Part shown: positions 47,727 to 60,169 of the stretch, in pieces
Layout of the letters: every line of letters begins with the position of its first letter
How positions within the stretch are numbered: position 1 is the first letter of the stretch
Source: Methanosarcina barkeri 3
Lineage (GTDB): Archaea; Halobacteriota; Methanosarcinia; Methanosarcinales; Methanosarcinaceae
Reading direction: 5' to 3'
Assembly: GCF_000970305.1 (NCBI RefSeq)
Contig: NZ_CP009517.1
Span: 1,116,001-1,180,000 of the forward strand
DNA length: 64,000 nt
Notes under the pieces: generated by a model
Seen by the model: only the letters and a program-made list of their open reading frames with translations
What the model was told of the DNA's origin: nothing
The model's database searches: none
Made by a program: the position numbers and the translations under genes

Positions 47727-47798
47727 GTCAGGGTGGTGGAAAGGCTACGCAGTGGCCTGCAGATCCATTTTGTCCTGGTTCGATTCCGGGCTCTGGCT
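47727..47798 (+). tRNA. tRNA-Cys (GCA)
   Basis: GTCAGGG pairs with CTCTGGC (with G-U pairs), D stem GTG/CGC, anticodon loop CTGCAGA with GCA, T arm CCTGG-TTCGATT-CCGGG, discriminator T as usual for tRNA-Cys. The anticodon stem GTGGC/TCCAT has a C-U mismatch at 31-39. CCA is not encoded. It is probably functional but less regular than the copy at 52171. Confidence 0.8.
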
Positions 47799-49396: not shown

Positions 49397-49726
49397 ATGA
49401 AAGTCGCTATTGTTTCAACTGATGGTAAGGTTATAAACCAGCATTTTGGAAAAGCATCCAGATTCTTTATATTTGAGGTTGATAGCTGTGGAAAAATACA
49501 ATTCTTAGAAGTAAGAGAGACCATACCTTTATGTGGTTCAGCAGATGAAGGGCATGCCGATGATGTTTTGAGCAGAATAATTTCTTTGATTTCTGACTGT
49601 GAGGCTTTGCTTTGCTCCAGAATTGGCAGCAGGCCGCAAGAAGAATTAAGGAAACATGGGATCAAACCAGTCGAAGCTCCATATTTTATTGATGAAGCCT
49701 TAAAAAGTTTATCTGAAGTTGAATAA
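49397..49726 (+). CDS. NifX/NifB-C-terminal-like cluster-binding protein
   Basis: A 109-residue protein of the dinitrogenase iron-molybdenum cofactor family (MKVAIVSTDGKVINQHFGKASRFFIFEVD ... LSRIISLISDCEALLCSRIG). Members bind or carry Fe-S or metal clusters on the way to nitrogenase-like enzymes; most in methanogens have no known partner. The HFG motif is intact. It could serve the nitrogenase-like pair at 56869-59778, but it is 7 kb away. GGAGATTAAA precedes ATG. Confidence 0.87.
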   Translation: MKVAIVSTDGKVINQHFGKASRFFIFEVDSCGKIQFLEVRETIPLCGSADEGHADDVLSRIISLISDCEALLCSRIGSRPQEELRKHGIKPVEAPYFIDEALKSLSEVE

Positions 49727-49885
49727 TCAGGATTTAACTGTTCCAGATAACCTTATTTCCGAACTACGGATTCATAAACGTTTAGCGAATATAACGACTT
49801 TCCAGATCTGAAAAATTACAGATACCGGAACGTTACAAACTTATTTTTGAGCCGCAATACTTCCTGTTTAACCTCTTGAACCTGC

Positions 49886-50061
49886 AAGAGTAATCTTGAG
49901 AACAATCTTGAGAATGATTTTGAGAACAATCTTGAGAACAATCTTGAGAACAATCTTGAGAACAATCTTGAGAACAATCTTGAGAACAATCTTGAGAACA
50001 ATCTTGAGAACAATCTTGAGAACAATCTTGAGAACAATCTTGAGAACAATCTTGAGAACGA
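49886..50061. repeat. 12-bp minisatellite (TTGAGAACAATC)n
   Basis: About 14 uninterrupted or near-perfect units of TTGAGAACAATC. Because 12 is divisible by three it opens long artificial frames on both strands. It lies between the NifX-like gene and a promoter-operator module. No function evident; copy number is likely variable. Confidence 0.9.
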
Positions 50062-50153
50062 CCTTTACTTTTGTTGAAATAGGAAAGGTTGCAAAACTGC
50101 TTTTTTCTGTCAAACAGGCGATTTACATCCTTAATCTACGAATATTGATAATT

Positions 50154-50231
50154 TTCAGGCACTTTTTGCCTTAAAAAAGAAATTTAAGTATTAATAATGA
50201 ATAGGATGTTTTGTCAGTTCACATATGTGAT
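50154..50231 (+). promoter_or_regulatory. Promoter-operator module (tRNA-Cys type), variant core
   Basis: GGCACTTTTTGCC, TATA-like TTTAAGTATT (about 50183-50192), and 26 bases later TTCACATATGTGAT (50218-50231), whose centre is ATAT instead of AATT. It is about 75% identical to the module at 36041. No tRNA follows; the next gene is at 50314. Confidence 0.55.
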
Positions 50232-51711: not shown

Positions 51712-51782
51712 GCCAGGGTGGCAGAAAGGCTACGCAATGGACTGCAGATCCATTTATCCCGGTTCGATTCCAGGTTCTGTCT
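51712..51782 (+). tRNA. tRNA-Cys (GCA)
   Basis: Acceptor GCCAGGG/TTCTGTC (one mismatch, two G-U pairs), D arm, perfect anticodon stem ATGGA/TCCAT with loop CTGCAGA (GCA), T arm CCCGG-TTCGATT-CCAGG with one mismatch, U73. It retains the B box GGTTCGATTCC. The mismatches suggest relaxed selection or a special role, but the molecule should fold. Confidence 0.72.
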
Positions 51783-52170: not shown

Positions 52171-52242
52171 GCTGAGATGGCGGAAAGGCTACGCGATGGA
52201 TTGCAACTCCATTATATCCCGGTTCGATTCCGGGTCTTAGCT
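52171..52242 (+). tRNA. tRNA-Cys (GCA), leader of the SepCysS gene
   Basis: The most regular copy: acceptor GCTGAGA/TCTTAGC, D stem GCG/CGC, anticodon stem ATGGA/TCCAT, loop TTGCAAC (GCA), T arm CCCGG-TTCGATT-CCGGG without mismatch, U73. SepCysS begins at 52255, only 12 bases after the tRNA, so both must be on one transcript that is cut to release the tRNA. Confidence 0.93.
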
Positions 52243-52254
52243 TAGGGGTAGTAT

Positions 52255-53637
52255 ATGGACATAAGAACACAAAAAACATTTGAGGCACTTTTTGCCCTTG
52301 AAGATATTAGGGAGACTCTTAGACAAAGGCTTCCGAATATCACAAGTCCAGAAGAAGAAAACACCATTAAAGAAAGTGTAAACAGAGTCAGAAAAATTCT
52401 GGACGATATCGAAAACTATACCGGAACCCCGGAAGTAAGGAAAATAGCTGATAATATTGACATCAGGTCCAGAGAAGAAACAAATATCAACATACAGCCA
52501 ATCCAGGCAGCAGGGAGGCTTACACCCGAAGCACGAAAAGCTCTCATAGCATATGGTGACGGCTATTCCACCTGTGATGCCTGCCGCAAACCTTTCAGGC
52601 TTGATAAAATAAGCAGTCCGCCTGTTGCTCCATTTCATGAACAGCTCGCAAGTTTCGTTAACATGGATGTGGCTAGAGTAGTACCAGGCGCAAGGAGAGG
52701 GTTCCAGGCGGTGGCTTCTACCTTGGTCAATAAAGGTGATTCCGTAATAGTTTCAGCTCTTGCCCATTATACCGAATTTCTTGCAGTAGAAGGAGCAGGA
52801 GGAATAGTTAGAGAAGTACCCTTAAATGAGCACAATCTTGTAACTGCAGATGCTACTGCTGAGAAAATTGAAGCGGTTAAACAGGAAACAGGCAAATCAC
52901 CGGTACTGGTAATGATTGACCACTTTGATTACCAGTACGCAAATGAGCATGATGTAAAAGGCATTGCAAAAGTTGCTCATCAGTATGACATTCCTTTCCT
53001 GTATAACGGAGCATATACTGTTGGTGTCAGGCCGGTTGATGGAAAAAGTATCGGTGCGGATTTTGTTGTAGGTTCAGGCCATAAAAGTATGGCATCTCCT
53101 GCACCTTCAGGGATACTGGCAACAACTGAGGAGTGGGCTCCGAAGATATTCCGTACGACTCAGATGACCGGTGATCTAACCAAACGCAAATTTGGGGTAA
53201 AGGAAGTAGAGATGCTTGGCTGCACACTGATGGGTTCAACACTGCTGGGTATGATGGCTTCATTCCCTACGGTTAAGGAGAGAGTAAATAACTGGGAAAA
53301 CGAGCTGAAAAAATCGAATTATCTGATCGATGGCCTGCTTGCTATCGAAGGCAGTAAAATCGTCTCAGAATATCCACGCAAACATACCCTTTCCAAAGTT
53401 GACACTATCAAGAGCTTCGATCTTATAGCACAGGAACATAAACGCAGAGGTTTCTTCCTTTCGGACGAACTTTCAAGCAAGGGCATTGTCGGAGAATTTG
53501 CAGGGGCCACACGCGTATGGAAACTTAATACATACGGGCTTTCATGGGATAAGGTTCGCTATGTGGTAGATACGTTTCAGGAAATCGCTGAAAAATACAA
53601 CATTCATGTAAACAGAGAGGAAAATTCCAATGACTAA
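52255..53637 (+). CDS. pscS: Sep-tRNA:Cys-tRNA synthase (SepCysS)
   Basis: A 460-residue PLP enzyme that converts O-phosphoseryl-tRNA-Cys to cysteinyl-tRNA-Cys, the second step of tRNA-dependent cysteine synthesis after SepRS. The PLP lysine is in [14 protein letters not shown]. The cysteines needed for catalysis are in [11 protein letters not shown] and LGCTLMG. It is longer than the shortest family members because of an N-terminal extension of about 75 residues ([18 protein letters not shown]). AGGGG before ATG 52255 lies right behind the tRNA. Overlaps the next gene by eight bases. Source of sulfide or persulfide may be the local IscS/ThiI-type proteins. Confidence 0.94.
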
Positions 53638-54922
53638 TAACTACAAATTAGGAACACTTGCCCTTCACGCTGGACAGGTCCCAGATCCAACAACAGGAGC
53701 ACGTGTTGTACCGATATATCAGACAACATCGTATGTTTTCAAGGATACCGATCATGCAGCTAATCTTTTTGGCATCAAAGAGCTGGGTAATATCTACACC
53801 CGAATAATGAATCCCACTACTGATGTTTTCGAACAACGCATAGCTGCCATTGAGGGTGGGACCGGAGCTCTCGGAGTCTCATCCGGTTCAGCAGCAATAG
53901 CTTATGCCCTATTAGCTATTACAAGAGTAGGAGACGAAATTGTATCCGGAAATAATCTTTACGGCGGAACCTATGAACTTTTTAATTACACTTTTCCCAA
54001 ATTTGGAAGAAAAGTGATATTCGTAGACTCAACGGATCTAGAAGCTTACCGGAAAGCTATAAATGAGAAAACCAGAGCTGTTTATATCGAGTCATTGGGT
54101 AACCCGAAACTTGATGTTCCGGATTTTGAGGCAATCGCAGAGATTGCTCATGAAGCCGGGATCCCACTTGTAGTAGACAACACAAGTGCTGTTGGGCTTG
54201 TTAGACCTATTGAACATGGCGCTGATATCGTTGTGCATTCGGCAACCAAATTCATTGGCGGACACGGAAACTCAATTGCCGGTTCTATAGTAGATTCCGG
54301 AAAATTCTCCTGGAATAACGGTAAGTTTCCGGAATTCACAGACCCTGATCCGGAGTATCACGGCCTGAAATACTGGGATACATTTTCAGCCTTTCCCGGA
54401 CTTGGAAATGTTGCATTAGTCTTTAAGATAAGGCTACAGCTTCTTCGAGATATAGGTGCAGCTATTTCACCTTTTAATTCATTCCTGTTGCTTCAGGGAC
54501 TTGAAACCCTGCATCTGAGAATACAGAGGCACTCGGAGAATGCCCTCAAGGTGGCAGAATATCTTTCTAATCATCCGAAAGTCTTGTGGGTTAATTATCC
54601 CGGTTTACCGGATCATCCAAGCCACGAACTTGCATCCAGGTATCTCAAAGGTGGTTATGGTGCACTGATAGGTTTCGGCGTGAAAGGTGGCGTTGAAGAA
54701 GGTAAAAAATTTATTAACTCTGTGAAACTGCTTTCACACGTTGCGAATATAGGAGATTCTAAAAGCCTCGTAATCCATCCGGCAACTACCACACACCAAC
54801 AATTAACCCCGACCGAACAGGAAGCGAATGGAGTCACGCCGGATTACATACGCCTTTCCGTAGGCACTGAGGATATAGAAGATATAATCTCGGATATAGA
54901 GCAGGCTCTTGAGCAAGTGTAA
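53630..54922 (+). CDS. metY: O-acetylhomoserine sulfhydrylase (MetY-like, Cys/Met PLP enzyme)
   Basis: A 430-residue PLP enzyme of the cystathionine gamma-synthase family. The PLP lysine is in [13 protein letters not shown], and the N-terminus [31 protein letters not shown] is that of O-acetylhomoserine (thiol)-lyases; the length above 420 with the PEYHGLKY insert supports this over cystathionine lyase. It makes homocysteine from O-acetylhomoserine and sulfide, or methionine with methanethiol. It overlaps SepCysS by eight bases and so is translated with it from the same transcript as tRNA-Cys. Confidence 0.9.
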
Positions 54923-55918: not shown

Positions 55919-56746
55919 ATGGAACAGTATAATAAGTTGAATAACATAAAAGATGATACAATGAGCCTGAAAACTGTAAATTTCTATTATTTTTCCGGAA
56001 CCGGAAACACTTTTTTAGTGGCTAAGAAAATGGAGGCCACTTTTAGCAGAAATGGGGTTAAGGTAAATTTGTACAGAATTGAAGATTCAAAGCCAGATGA
56101 TATAAATTTAGAACATGCTATAGGTCTGGGGTTTCCTATAGCTGAATTTTCAACTTATGATTTTGTGTGGAATTTTGTAAAGTCACTTCCTGAAGCAAAG
56201 GGAACTAACGTTTTTATGGTAGCTACATTTGGAGGAATTTCAGGCGGGGTTGTAGGATCTATGAGTGAAATCCTGAAGAATAAAGGGTATACGCCTATAG
56301 GAGCTGAAGAGATCGTAATGCCTCCTAATATTTTTTATGTTCAGGACGAGAAAACCTGCAGTGTCAAGATAGAAAAAGGGATTAAAAAAGCCGAAGAATA
56401 TGCAATGGATCTTATGAGTGGGAAATCCAGATGGGATTCAGCTTCTGTATTTTCTGATATGGCTTATTACATATCTACGGCTTGTTTAAAGTTAACAGAG
56501 ATGAGTATAAATCAGAAATTAATACACCTGAAAACAGACATAGAAAAATGCACTAAATGCGGAATATGCATTAAACTTTGTCCTGTGGGAAATATATGTG
56601 TGAAAAACGAGTACCCAGAACACGGCTTTGAGTGTAGATACTGTTTGAGGTGTACGTCTTTTTGTCCGGCAAAGGCTATTTCCTGTCCTATTAATTATAA
56701 AGGGAAGACTTATAGAGCAGTTAAAGCCAGAGAACTTGTAAAATGA
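55919..56746 (+). CDS. EFR1-type flavodoxin-ferredoxin fusion
   Basis: A 275-residue soluble electron-transfer protein. A flavodoxin-like domain (residues 17-165) starts with the FMN loop FSGTGNTFLVA; a C-terminal ferredoxin domain has CTKCGICIKLCP and CRYCLRCTSFCP, two [4Fe-4S] clusters. ATG 55961 (MSLKTVNFYYFS) is an alternative start. It is convergent with the nitrogenase-like pair and could be its electron donor, but this is inference. Confidence 0.88.
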   Translation: MEQYNKLNNIKDDTMSLKTVNFYYFSGTGNTFLVAKKMEATFSRNGVKVNLYRIEDSKPDDINLEHAIGLGFPIAEFSTYDFVWNFVKSLPEAKGTNVFMVATFGGISGGVVGSMSEILKNKGYTPIGAEEIVMPPNIFYVQDEKTCSVKIEKGIKKAEEYAMDLMSGKSRWDSASVFSDMAYYISTACLKLTEMSINQKLIHLKTDIEKCTKCGICIKLCPVGNICVKNEYPEHGFECRYCLRCTSFCPAKAISCPINYKGKTYRAVKARELVK

Positions 56747-56868: not shown

Positions 56869-58221
56869 TCACAAAGGCCCTGCATACTTACTCATAACGT
56901 CTTCCATTAGAGTAAGCCCTCCGCTGAACCCTGCGTAACTTCGCTCAAGTATTATGCGGTCGTATGACGGGAATGAAACCGTCAGATGTATGGCATTAAA
57001 TTCCGGGCCTGATATGAAAGTTTCAAGAGAACTTGCAAGCAGAAACATGAAATTCCTGTCTTTTAAATTTTCCCGAATCCTGTATGCATCCACTTCATAT
57101 ATTATTTCAGGCCAGGCAGGGGTTTCAAGTCCAGTTGTCAGTTCCTCATTTATCAGTTCACGGGCTTCTTCAGGTGGATTATCCGTTATCTGGACAATGT
57201 CTGGCAGATATCCCATTTCATTTGCAAGATATTTTGTAATGCTTACAGCTGAATTACTGTCTGCTACCACTGCAAAGTAAGGATGTGGCCTGGCGATTAA
57301 AAGTACATCCCCAACATATTCTGCAAACCTGTAAGCTCTTCTTTCCTCACTGGAGATCAGATATTCAATGACATCGGCTGAAACATCTAACCTTTCTCCT
57401 ATAACCCTCAGGAATTCCGATGTTTGCTTTGGCCCTATCGGTACCCCTGGGAAAGAGATGTAAGGAGTATCGAATTTTCCTTCGAGTTTCTTTGCAGTTT
57501 CATGCCCGACCCAGCTTGAAAGGACAATATTATATTCAGCTGCCGGAATTTTTTTCAGGTTCTCAAGCGCGTCAAATTCTCCTACGATTAGATTTGCTTT
57601 CAAGCCTATTTTTTCAAGCAGAGTTTTTATCGTCCTTGCTTCTCCCTTCCAGAATATGTGCTGGAAAGGAACTATTCCAAATACGTTTACCAGTCCTTTT
57701 TCTTTTGGAACTTTTTCTTCAAGGAGCTGGTCGATTACAGAGTCGAAAAAGTATTCGTAGCCTTCGTAGGAAGTTCCTGCAAACCCTGAGGTGTTTACAT
57801 GTATGATCGGAATCTCAGGGTTCTTTTCTTTATACCTTCTGATAACCGCCCCCACGTCGTCTCCTATGAGTGAGGGAACACAACCAGAGATGACTGCAAA
57901 TAACTCTCCGTTTACAAGTTCTACCGTTGACTCAATAAGACTTTCAAGTTTTTTTTCGCCGCCGAAAATTACATGCTCCTCAACTAAAGAGGAACAGGGA
58001 GTGCTCGTTCCTCCATAAGGCCCTCCTGCATTCTGGCCCCCACCGTAAAATTGGCCAAAAAGCTGCCCGATTCCACATCCTGCTCCCGAATGGAGTATGG
58101 GGACAACTCCAAATATACCTACTGCTGTTGAATAAGCCCCTGCGAGTGCGCAGGAGTAACGTGGTGCTTCAATAGCACCTGATATAACATTATTTGTCTC
58201 TAAAGGTTCACTTATTCCCAT
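56869..58221 (-). CDS. Nitrogenase-like component 1, K-type subunit
   Basis: A 450-residue protein of the NifK/NifN/BchB family. Cysteines C24 (RYSCALAG), C49 (GAGCGIG) and C114 (SGCVPSLIGDD) correspond to the three P-cluster ligands. STPCSSLVEEHVIFGGEKKL is typical of the nitrogenase-like branches rather than true NifK. It starts 12 bases after the D-type gene, with GGAG from that gene's end as ribosome-binding site. It should form an alpha2beta2 enzyme with the D subunit. No NifH, NifB or NifEN is nearby. Confidence 0.88.
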   Translation of the reverse strand: MGISEPLETNNVISGAIEAPRYSCALAGAYSTAVGIFGVVPILHSGAGCGIGQLFGQFYGGGQNAGGPYGGTSTPCSSLVEEHVIFGGEKKLESLIESTVELVNGELFAVISGCVPSLIGDDVGAVIRRYKEKNPEIPIIHVNTSGFAGTSYEGYEYFFDSVIDQLLEEKVPKEKGLVNVFGIVPFQHIFWKGEARTIKTLLEKIGLKANLIVGEFDALENLKKIPAAEYNIVLSSWVGHETAKKLEGKFDTPYISFPGVPIGPKQTSEFLRVIGERLDVSADVIEYLISSEERRAYRFAEYVGDVLLIARPHPYFAVVADSNSAVSITKYLANEMGYLPDIVQITDNPPEEARELINEELTTGLETPAWPEIIYEVDAYRIRENLKDRNFMFLLASSLETFISGPEFNAIHLTVSFPSYDRIILERSYAGFSGGLTLMEDVMSKYAGPL

Positions 58222-58233
58222 AATTACACCTAT

Positions 58234-59778
58234 TTACTCCTCTGCTTTCAGATAGTACAGAGAATTTGGCTGTTTATACCACCAGTCTTTATACGTACTC
58301 TGCGTTTTTTCTTTCATTGTCCGCTGGTATGAATGGCTTTTCAATGACTGCAAAAGGAAGTTTCCGAATGCAATCGCTCCCGTATAGCCGCTCTGGGCAC
58401 TCCAGGGGTGGGCATCGGACCTCAAGGCATGTACTCTTGTTACACCCTTGTCACGCTTGAATGCGCCTCCTTGGAACGGGCAGGTCATTGCGATATCGGG
58501 ATCTCTCTGGTTTGTTATATGTGTCTGTTCTGCAGCCTGGAAGGTATTTACCAGAATGTCAAAGTCCCCCATCTGCGCGATTAATTTTTCGAGGTCCTTG
58601 AGTATGAGGTTGTCAAAGTCCTGGCACATTGCAGCTGATGATTTAAGTCCGAGTTCGTCAAAGTATGGGACCTGAGCCAGAAGTCTTCCCTGCCCAAGTG
58701 CACCCAGCACTTCTACTTTCTCTCCATTGCCTTTGAAGTTTTCAAATTCCTGCCTGATTGCCTTCAGTTTAGGCAGCCATTTTTCGTGTTCTTCTTTGAT
58801 CAGGGCTTCTATTTCCCTTTCTTTTCCGGTATGCCTCCCGATTTCCCTTAGCCACTCGTCTGTGTGGGCAACTCCCATTGGGGAAGGATAGAGGAAATAA
58901 GGAATTCCGTATTCCTGCTTAAGCCCGCGGGCCAGATAGTCAGTATAGGTCGGGCACAGGGGTGCAGTAACTGCAGCTTCGGAAAGTTGTTCAAACTGCT
59001 CCACAGATGCAAATTCAGGAACGAAGTTAACTCTGAGACCGACTTTTCCCAGCAGGCGTTTTATTTCCAGCCTGTCCTGCCAGGTGTAAGAGAGCATGCT
59101 TGCTACATTTACCAGGTCTTTCTGTTTCTTTTCCGGCTTTTTGACAAGGTATTTCAGGACTGCATGCCAGAAAGCGTCATAACCTGTCTGGACGAGTCTT
59201 GAGCGTGAGCCTTCACAATGAATCGGGACTATTGTTGCTTTTATTTCGGGCTGGACCTGTGAGACAGTCCCTTCTATGTCCTCTCCTATTATTCCTGAAG
59301 TACAGGACGTAAGTACAAAGATTGCTTTTGGATTATACCGTCTCTCAGCTTCTTTTATAGCTTCCCTGAGCTTTTCGCCGGCACCGTAGACCACATCTCT
59401 TTCCCTGAGGTTTGTTGTCATCCAGTGAAGGTCAAAATTTGCAGGGCGGCCAAGTTCAACAGGTATATGCCTGTAGAGTTCACGGTAACCAAGTGCTGCG
59501 GACGAGCAGCCGACAGGTGCATGATATATAGCTACGGCGTCACGGATTGTTCCGATCCTTACTGAAAGATAGAAGTTCAGAACACAACCGCTTGACTGCT
59601 GAAAATTCCGTTCTCTTTGCCTCAGGCAGCCGGAACGGGCTTCTTTTGCAAGGTCACTTGCCTTTCCATACCAGACGTTGATACCGTTTGCCCTCTGTTC
59701 CCTGTTGGGACATGTATTCCGTGATAGGTCGATTCTTTCCTCGATCAGTTCATTTTCAGTAAGTTCTGTTCCTGACAT
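58234..59778 (-). CDS. Nitrogenase-like component 1, D-type subunit
   Basis: A 514-residue protein of the NifD family. C65, C91 and C159 match the P-cluster ligands. C275 (APLCPTYTDYLARGLKQEYGIPY) and H457 (AHPWSAQSGYTG) align with the two residues that hold FeMo-cofactor in NifD (Cys275 and His442), so a metal cofactor is likely, unlike in BchN or CfbD. The sequence around QRANGINVWYGKASDLAKEARSGC resembles methylthio-alkane reductase and other group IV nitrogenase-like proteins. With MetY nearby, release of methanethiol or sulfide from organosulfur compounds is a reasonable idea. It needs a reductase encoded elsewhere. Confidence 0.88.
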   Translation of the reverse strand: MSGTELTENELIEERIDLSRNTCPNREQRANGINVWYGKASDLAKEARSGCLRQRERNFQQSSGCVLNFYLSVRIGTIRDAVAIYHAPVGCSSAALGYRELYRHIPVELGRPANFDLHWMTTNLRERDVVYGAGEKLREAIKEAERRYNPKAIFVLTSCTSGIIGEDIEGTVSQVQPEIKATIVPIHCEGSRSRLVQTGYDAFWHAVLKYLVKKPEKKQKDLVNVASMLSYTWQDRLEIKRLLGKVGLRVNFVPEFASVEQFEQLSEAAVTAPLCPTYTDYLARGLKQEYGIPYFLYPSPMGVAHTDEWLREIGRHTGKEREIEALIKEEHEKWLPKLKAIRQEFENFKGNGEKVEVLGALGQGRLLAQVPYFDELGLKSSAAMCQDFDNLILKDLEKLIAQMGDFDILVNTFQAAEQTHITNQRDPDIAMTCPFQGGAFKRDKGVTRVHALRSDAHPWSAQSGYTGAIAFGNFLLQSLKSHSYQRTMKEKTQSTYKDWWYKQPNSLYYLKAEE

Positions 59779-59783
59779 TAATA

Positions 59784-59846
59784 CTACTCCGTAAGAGACC
59801 TGCTTTTCGTAGTTAGTTTGTCTCCAGTATGTTTTACTCCTGACAT
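59784..59846 (-). CDS. 20-codon upstream reading frame before the nitrogenase-like operon
   Basis: ATG 59846, directly after AGGAGGTG, starts a frame of 20 codons ending at TAG 59786-59784, five bases before the D-subunit ATG. The peptide begins MSG, as does the D subunit, and the surrounding bases are similar, hinting at a small duplication. It may be a leader peptide that controls translation. TAG can be pyrrolysine in this genus, but reading through would meet TAA two codons later. Confidence 0.4.
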   Translation of the reverse strand: MSGVKHTGDKLTTKSRSLTE

Positions 59847-60169
59847 CACCTCCTCTATTCGCATTAATGAATATATAAATCGGGAAATCAGCAAAAATGT
59901 AAGCTAGTTTCTCATTATCCGAATTTTTGCGGCAAAAAAGAAAGTTTGGAAATAATTCAGTATTTTGAACCGGATCCAGATGAATAAATGCATCTGAATA
60001 ATATCCTGTTTCAGTGTCCTGAATGATGATAGGATTTGTTCCGGTTCCGGATTAATTTGTTTATTCAGACCTGGGCAGGATAGGAAATTTTCAGTTTTTC
60101 CTCACTACGCCGCACGGCCTGGAGACCTGCCTGCCGTTTAAAAAAATAATGACCTGAAAACCGATATCG
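59847..60169. other. Promoter region of the nitrogenase-like operon and gap
   Basis: On the minus strand CGATTTATATATTC (about 59868-59882) is a likely TATA box, 35 bases before the upstream reading frame. GCCTGGAGACCTGCCTGCCG and neighbours (60115-60138) are GC-rich compared with the rest but I see no gene. No CACAATTGTG site is present. Confidence 0.5.

Follow-up and report, generated by a model that had tools for sequence, protein, structure and literature searches.

A nitrogenase-like DK pair in Methanosarcina barkeri 3 represents an uncharacterised Group IV clade and is probably an organosulfur reductase

Introduction

The nitrogenase-like systems closest to the locus described here belong to Group IV, in which Mar and Isr are organosulfur enzymes (PMC12552129, PMC11423573) and MarHDK-like genes of Group IV-A are found repeatedly in methyltransferase clusters linked to sulfur (PMC10418091). 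The methylthio-alkane reductase MarHDK(B) of Rhodospirillum rubrum (Group IV-C; structures 9fmg and 9d9u) shares with our locus the HDK architecture, the six P-cluster cysteines, a cofactor cysteine (Cys270, Cys275 here), a neighbourhood of sulfur genes and SsuA-type transporters, and independence from NifEN. A hallmark of its D subunit is Arg428-His429 in Loop I (PMC12552129). The isethionate reductase IsrBHDK of Rhodobacter capsulatus is likewise a Group IV HDK system with sulfonate-type transporter loci. However, IsrD keeps one of the three P-cluster cysteines (PMC11423573), whereas the clade examined here keeps all three. NfaHDK of Endomicrobium proavitum (Group IV-A), another Group IV HDK system without NifEN and close to Mar (PMC9147875, PMC11423573), differs in being a reported N2 fixer. 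NifDK (Groups I-III) has in common with our pair the fold, the P-cluster cysteines and Cys275, at about 20% identity in a structural alignment.

Results

We analysed a window of 64,000 nucleotides of the M. barkeri 3 genome (contig NZ_CP009517.1, positions 1,116,001 to 1,180,000); coordinates below are window positions unless given as contig positions. The nitrogenase-like DK pair noted in an initial annotation was confirmed as two full-length PF00148 proteins with E-values of about 1e-69:

58234..59778, minus strand: D subunit, 514 aa (PF00148 1.8e-69; best PDB match MarD 9fmg, 3e-77)
56869..58221, minus strand: K subunit, 450 aa (PF00148 1e-69; best PDB match MarK 9d9u_C, 9.7e-83)

Both reading frames are intact and K lies 12 nt downstream of D, so that the two genes likely form one operon. 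The start of D is at 59778. The initial annotation had extended it to 59846, a position we rejected because the ATG there lies in a different frame, opens only 20 codons and is missing in the relative L054. A pyrrolysine read-through fusing D with K was also discarded, the stop codon of D being TAA. Elsewhere the genome carries complete Mo- (3.54 Mb), V- (1.37 Mb) and Fe-nitrogenase (2.48 Mb) loci, each of nif, vnf and anf with its own DK genes, together with CfbCD, NifE/NifN and a single NifB.

Among all solved structures, MarDK of R. rubrum is the best match of both subunits (263 bits versus 108 for the next family with D and 281 versus 86 with K in the PDB comparison), with NifDK far below; identity is 41% for D over its N-terminal 350 residues and 35% for K. 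The AlphaFold2 model of D (pLDDT 85.6, pTM 0.89) superimposes on MarD 9fmg with a Z-score of 38.9 and an rmsd of 2.3 over 457 residues, while structures other than MarD reach a Z-score of about 30. Curated nitrogenase models score below their cut-offs on D (nifD 133 versus 653 bits, N2-ase-Ialpha 157 versus 486) and on K (nifK 80 versus 427). The same holds for NifEN (nifE 137 versus 505 on D and 97 versus 505 on K; nifN 44 versus 327 on K). The separation from the chlorophyll and F430 relatives drawn in the initial annotation also stands: D reaches 90 bits against a BchB cut-off of 490 and 53 against a CfbD cut-off of 268, and CfbD is a homodimer without K, whereas K is present here.

A genome scan provided 79 related loci as the comparison set. 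In a quick maximum-likelihood tree with SH-aLRT support only, which covered Mar and Nif but neither Nfa nor Isr, the D subunit falls into a separate clade of 60 rows (support 100), sister-level to Mar (support 99) and outside Nif; this clade stands apart from a 20-row Mar and Mar-like clade, for which nine D rows with 66-85% identity to an R. rubrum MarD fragment served as the true-Mar reference, and from a third, paralogue group. Its members come from archaea (Methanosarcina, Methanothrix, Methanospirillum, Methanoperedenaceae (ANME), Methanobrevibacter and Methanosphaera) and bacteria (Geobacterales, Sporomusa, gut Myxococcota MAGs and Acidobacteriota). The clade is thus an uncharacterised branch of Group IV present in many methanogens and anaerobic bacteria. 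Its patchy distribution, combined with 60-75% identity across domains, points to gene transfer, by which HDK would have moved between lineages. Two Methanosarcina genomes encode a second DK type, about 35% identical, from the third tree group (L047:15298-18071 and L051:5583-8314), in L047 at 4 kb from the clade DK.

All three P-cluster cysteines per subunit are retained, as had been claimed: Cys65, Cys91 and Cys159 of D in 60/60 clade rows, and Cys24, Cys49 and Cys114 of K in each of the 99 K rows. The same is true of Cys275 (60/60 clade rows), proposed earlier as the equivalent of a FeMo-cofactor ligand. His457, put forward as the other ligand, is not conserved, being histidine in only 13 of 60 rows and otherwise R, D, E, L or another residue. 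The invariant candidates for the second cofactor ligand in D are instead Cys433 and His450. The latter is part of a segment that Mar lacks, and its equivalence to NifD His442 is uncertain, since the two are two columns apart in the alignment and the loop is modelled at low confidence (pLDDT < 50). At the MarD hallmark, Arg428-His429 is replaced by Cys433-Pro434 in 60/60 clade rows, whereas R/K-H occupies this position in 20/20 Mar and Mar-like rows; in the MarD pocket, His194 and Trp195 are exchanged for L/I/V and V/I/M. The equivalents of NifD V70, R96 and R359 are mostly kept (V73 in 46/60, R99 in 53/60 and R365 in 60/60), in contrast to those of Q191, H195 and K426, which are absent, with V196 and Y200 in the Q191 and H195 columns. 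The site therefore corresponds neither to Mar nor to Nif, and with the Mar hallmark residues missing, Mar chemistry is not transferable to the clade enzyme.

The statement that no H, B, E or N gene is nearby holds for H within the window, which contains none. However, the search for a matching NifH-like gene and NifB, extended to the whole genome, returned, besides the one NifB, an orphan NifH-like gene roughly 6 kb beyond the end of the window and about 10 kb upstream of D, which identifies the earlier absence as a window-edge artefact; in addition, a NifX/NifB-C-terminal-like ORF (49397-49726) lies within the window. The H region comprises:

contig 1185927-1186868 (69927-70868 on the window scale): orphan NifH-like gene
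contig 1179046-1184601 (L024:46-5601): type II methyltransferase, HNH nuclease, response regulator and GHKL kinase, between DK and H
contig 1187385-1187672 (L024:8385-8672): 95-aa protein after H, recurring beside H or DK in 8 archaeal clade loci
contig 1187955-1188209 (L024:8955-9209): 84-aa winged-helix protein after H, recurring in 7 archaeal clade loci

This H shares 96% identity with the H of genome G226, which lies about 2.7 kb from the orthologous DK, and 75-82% with H genes that other methanogens carry in HDK loci, as opposed to 46-52% with NifH, VnfH, AnfH and CfbC of the same genome; by these identities it is the cognate H of DK. Unlike in the Mar locus, H forms its own transcription unit and the NifB gene is non-adjacent. 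The genes between DK and H may represent a restriction- or defence-type element inserted into a once-divergent H/DK arrangement. The 95-aa protein, without a match in Pfam or PHROGs, is a putative accessory protein.

The regions upstream of D and H share an element, represented at D by:

59888..59937, minus strand: putative operator upstream of D, consisting of the palindrome TTTTGCSGCAAAA (59925-59937), a 32-nt gap and TTGCTGA
59872..59879, minus strand: TATA-like box TTTATATA, putative DK promoter, kept in six Methanosarcinaceae D-upstream sequences

In the whole 4.56-Mb genome the 13-bp palindrome has just two exact sites, one lying 147 nt upstream of D and the other 72 nt upstream of H, compared with 0 in the reversed control and a Markov expectation of 0.6. 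Both sites are followed by the same 32-nt gap, TTGCTGA and a TATA-like box. Of 30 Methanosarcina genomes, 9 contain the exact composite motif, eight of these twice; the reversed control lacks it. H and DK would be switched together via this shared putative operator, the sense of regulation being likewise presumptive, and the winged-helix protein beside H in seven loci is a candidate regulator. A wider regulon was rejected, as one-mismatch palindromes (24 sites versus 16 in the control) amount to noise. In several Methanosarcina (L054, L055 and L092), a flavoprotein of the Old Yellow Enzyme type, carrying a C-terminal Cys motif, is encoded divergently from D and shares the operator region; in the present genome its gene (contig 738546-739523; L152:1625-2602) lies beside a degenerate composite motif with 2 mismatches. 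The flavin oxidoreductase is present in 7/9 Methanosarcina genomes with the motif and 7/21 without, a weak co-occurrence, and it is a possible pathway partner.

In the window, DK is preceded by genes of sulfur metabolism and electron transfer:

47727-47798, 51712-51782 and 52171-52242: tRNA-Cys genes, all three inside 4.5 kb and the third directly next to SepCysS
49397..49726, plus strand: NifX/NifB-C-terminal-like protein, 109 aa (PF02579 7.7e-22)
52255..53637, plus strand: SepCysS, tRNA-dependent cysteine synthesis (TIGR02539, 404 bits versus a cut-off of 365)
53630..54922, plus strand: MetY, O-acetylhomoserine sulfhydrylase (TIGR01326, 656.7 bits versus 495)
55919..56746, plus strand: EFR1-type flavodoxin-ferredoxin fusion (NF038196, 151 bits versus 75)

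Upstream of MetY, the tRNA-Cys trio and SepCysS make up a group of cysteine and sulfur genes. MetY itself, previously placed about 2 kb from DK, lies at 1.9 kb and probably consumes released sulfide or thiol; SepCysS, which requires sulfide, is a possible further consumer of the DK product. The flavodoxin-ferredoxin fusion cited in the initial annotation is present and is a putative electron donor to DK; as evidence it is weak, because it adjoins DK in just one near-identical relative, L053. The 109-aa NifX-like protein is possibly a cluster carrier with a weak tie to DK. A low-complexity repeat at 49868-50174 beside its gene appears as LKIV and RTIL runs in the ORFs of either strand.

Across 57 clade loci, neighbour counts, which are lower bounds given the simple ORF caller and which take the H of the window from L024, were 42 for H, 21 for SsuA/TauA-type binding proteins, 13 for NifX, 9 for NifB-like radical SAM proteins, 7 for MetY and 3 for CysK. 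In L044 and L078, MetY runs in the same direction as H, D and K. CysK stands between H and the ABC genes of an H-ABC-DK run in Geotalea (L064) and Geobacter (L068), a placement which suggests that the product is probably sulfide. MetY of the window type also occurs near DK in L049, L053 and L108, but the DK loci of G226 and G289 lack it; in most methanogen loci, sulfur genes are non-adjacent to DK.

Three genomes of about 99% completeness each (G289, G096 and G202) carry clade HDK and a NifB above cut-off, and neither NifDK nor NifEN was found in them at canonical scores, which indicates that a NifEN-matured cofactor is hardly needed. By analogy with Mar, a NifB-made [Fe8S9C] cluster would be the natural reading. 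The presence of NifB is permissive evidence only, since NifB is indispensable to methanogens for reasons unrelated to HDK (PMC12176620).

Discussion

We propose, with a probability of about 0.6, that DK forms the catalytic part of an organosulfur reductase, nitrogenase-like and ATP-dependent, which belongs to an uncharacterised branch of Group IV separate from methylthio-alkane reductase, and that the enzyme would cleave C-S bonds for sulfur scavenging, probably yielding sulfide or a thiol. Support at the sequence level comes from the subunits, the cysteines, the clade, the cognate H, the shared operator and the sulfur-gene neighbourhoods. The organosulfur part of the initial annotation is thus backed by the nearest relative, the phylogeny and neighbourhoods across phyla, but its identification with methylthio-alkane reductase is not. 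Neither outcome that the annotation had named as refuting its idea turned up: D and K remain far under the NifE/NifN and CfbD cut-offs, and nif, vnf and anf bring their own DK.

The proposed reaction would proceed in four steps, in which (i) H, co-switched with DK through the operator, hydrolyses ATP and feeds electrons of low potential to the P-cluster lying between the two subunits; (ii) the electrons pass on to an [Fe8S9C] cluster made by NifB, which D ligates through Cys275 and either Cys433 or His450; (iii) at the D cluster, a small organosulfur compound is cleaved at a C-S bond; and (iv) the sulfide or thiol is taken up by MetY, SepCysS or CysK-type enzymes and converted to methionine and cysteine. 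We infer five elements of this scheme, namely the identity of the cluster, its second ligand, the substrate, the product and the sense of regulation. A more far-reaching proposal, which we advance tentatively and consider somewhat less probable than its negation, is that, among nitrogenase-like sulfur enzymes, the clade constitutes a third type by function, an [Fe8S9C] reductase with a Cys433 or His450 ligand that frees sulfide from an organosulfur compound, has its own operator and was passed by gene transfer between methanogens and anaerobic bacteria.

The most obvious alternative is a true methylthio-alkane reductase converting dimethyl sulfide or 2-methylthioethanol to methanethiol and methane or ethylene, with MetY turning methanethiol into methionine. 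MarDK is indeed the closest solved enzyme in both sequence and fold, and MetY is nearby; nevertheless, we regard this as unlikely, because D belongs to a separate clade, both the Arg-His hallmark and the His194/Trp195 pocket are replaced, and CysK in two loci favours sulfide over methanethiol. The position of NfaDK close to Mar, together with the NifD V70, R96 and R359 equivalents that the clade mostly keeps, unlike Mar, could instead speak for N2 reduction of the type reported for E. proavitum. Yet Q191, H195 and K426 have no equivalents, the host already possesses three full nitrogenase loci, the isolates G392-G398, carriers of clade or Mar genes, also encode canonical high-scoring DK/EN sets, and the neighbours are sulfur genes, all of which renders nitrogen fixation improbable.

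A comparably low probability is assigned to an ATP-driven reductase of another SsuA/TauA-imported substrate, such as a sulfonate attacked at S-O rather than C-S, or a non-sulfur compound: the broad specificity of the transporter family and pocket residues unlike those of Mar would fit, whereas MetY and CysK within the same gene runs would not. For an assembly scaffold or a tetrapyrrole enzyme of the NifEN, CfbD or Bch type, only general PF00148 homology can be adduced, and the low NifE, CfbD and BchB scores of D, the NifE/NifN and CfbD genes elsewhere in the genome, the cognate H and the retained Cys275 make it the least credible of all.

If the organosulfur reading is correct, methanogens, like the anaerobes around them, obtain sulfur from organic compounds with a nitrogenase-like machine, and the family outside nitrogenase has found another solution to cofactor ligation. 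HDK, NifB and one operator would then offer a defined gene set for probing early [Fe8S9C] enzymes that preceded N2 fixation. Caution is advisable with Group IV nifH sequences of methanogens, which may mark sulfur rather than nitrogen metabolism.

HDK is dispensable and undergoing loss in parts of the genus: D is interrupted by stops in G339 (L050/L108), and G401 (L163) retains MetY, a CDGSH protein, the D-type operator and the flavoprotein, with no D gene listed there. Conversely, G056 (L042) has three clade DK pairs with one H within 20 kb, and in a Methanothrix MAG (L057) two D genes flank one H; in these two genomes, DK variants for different substrates possibly use a single H.
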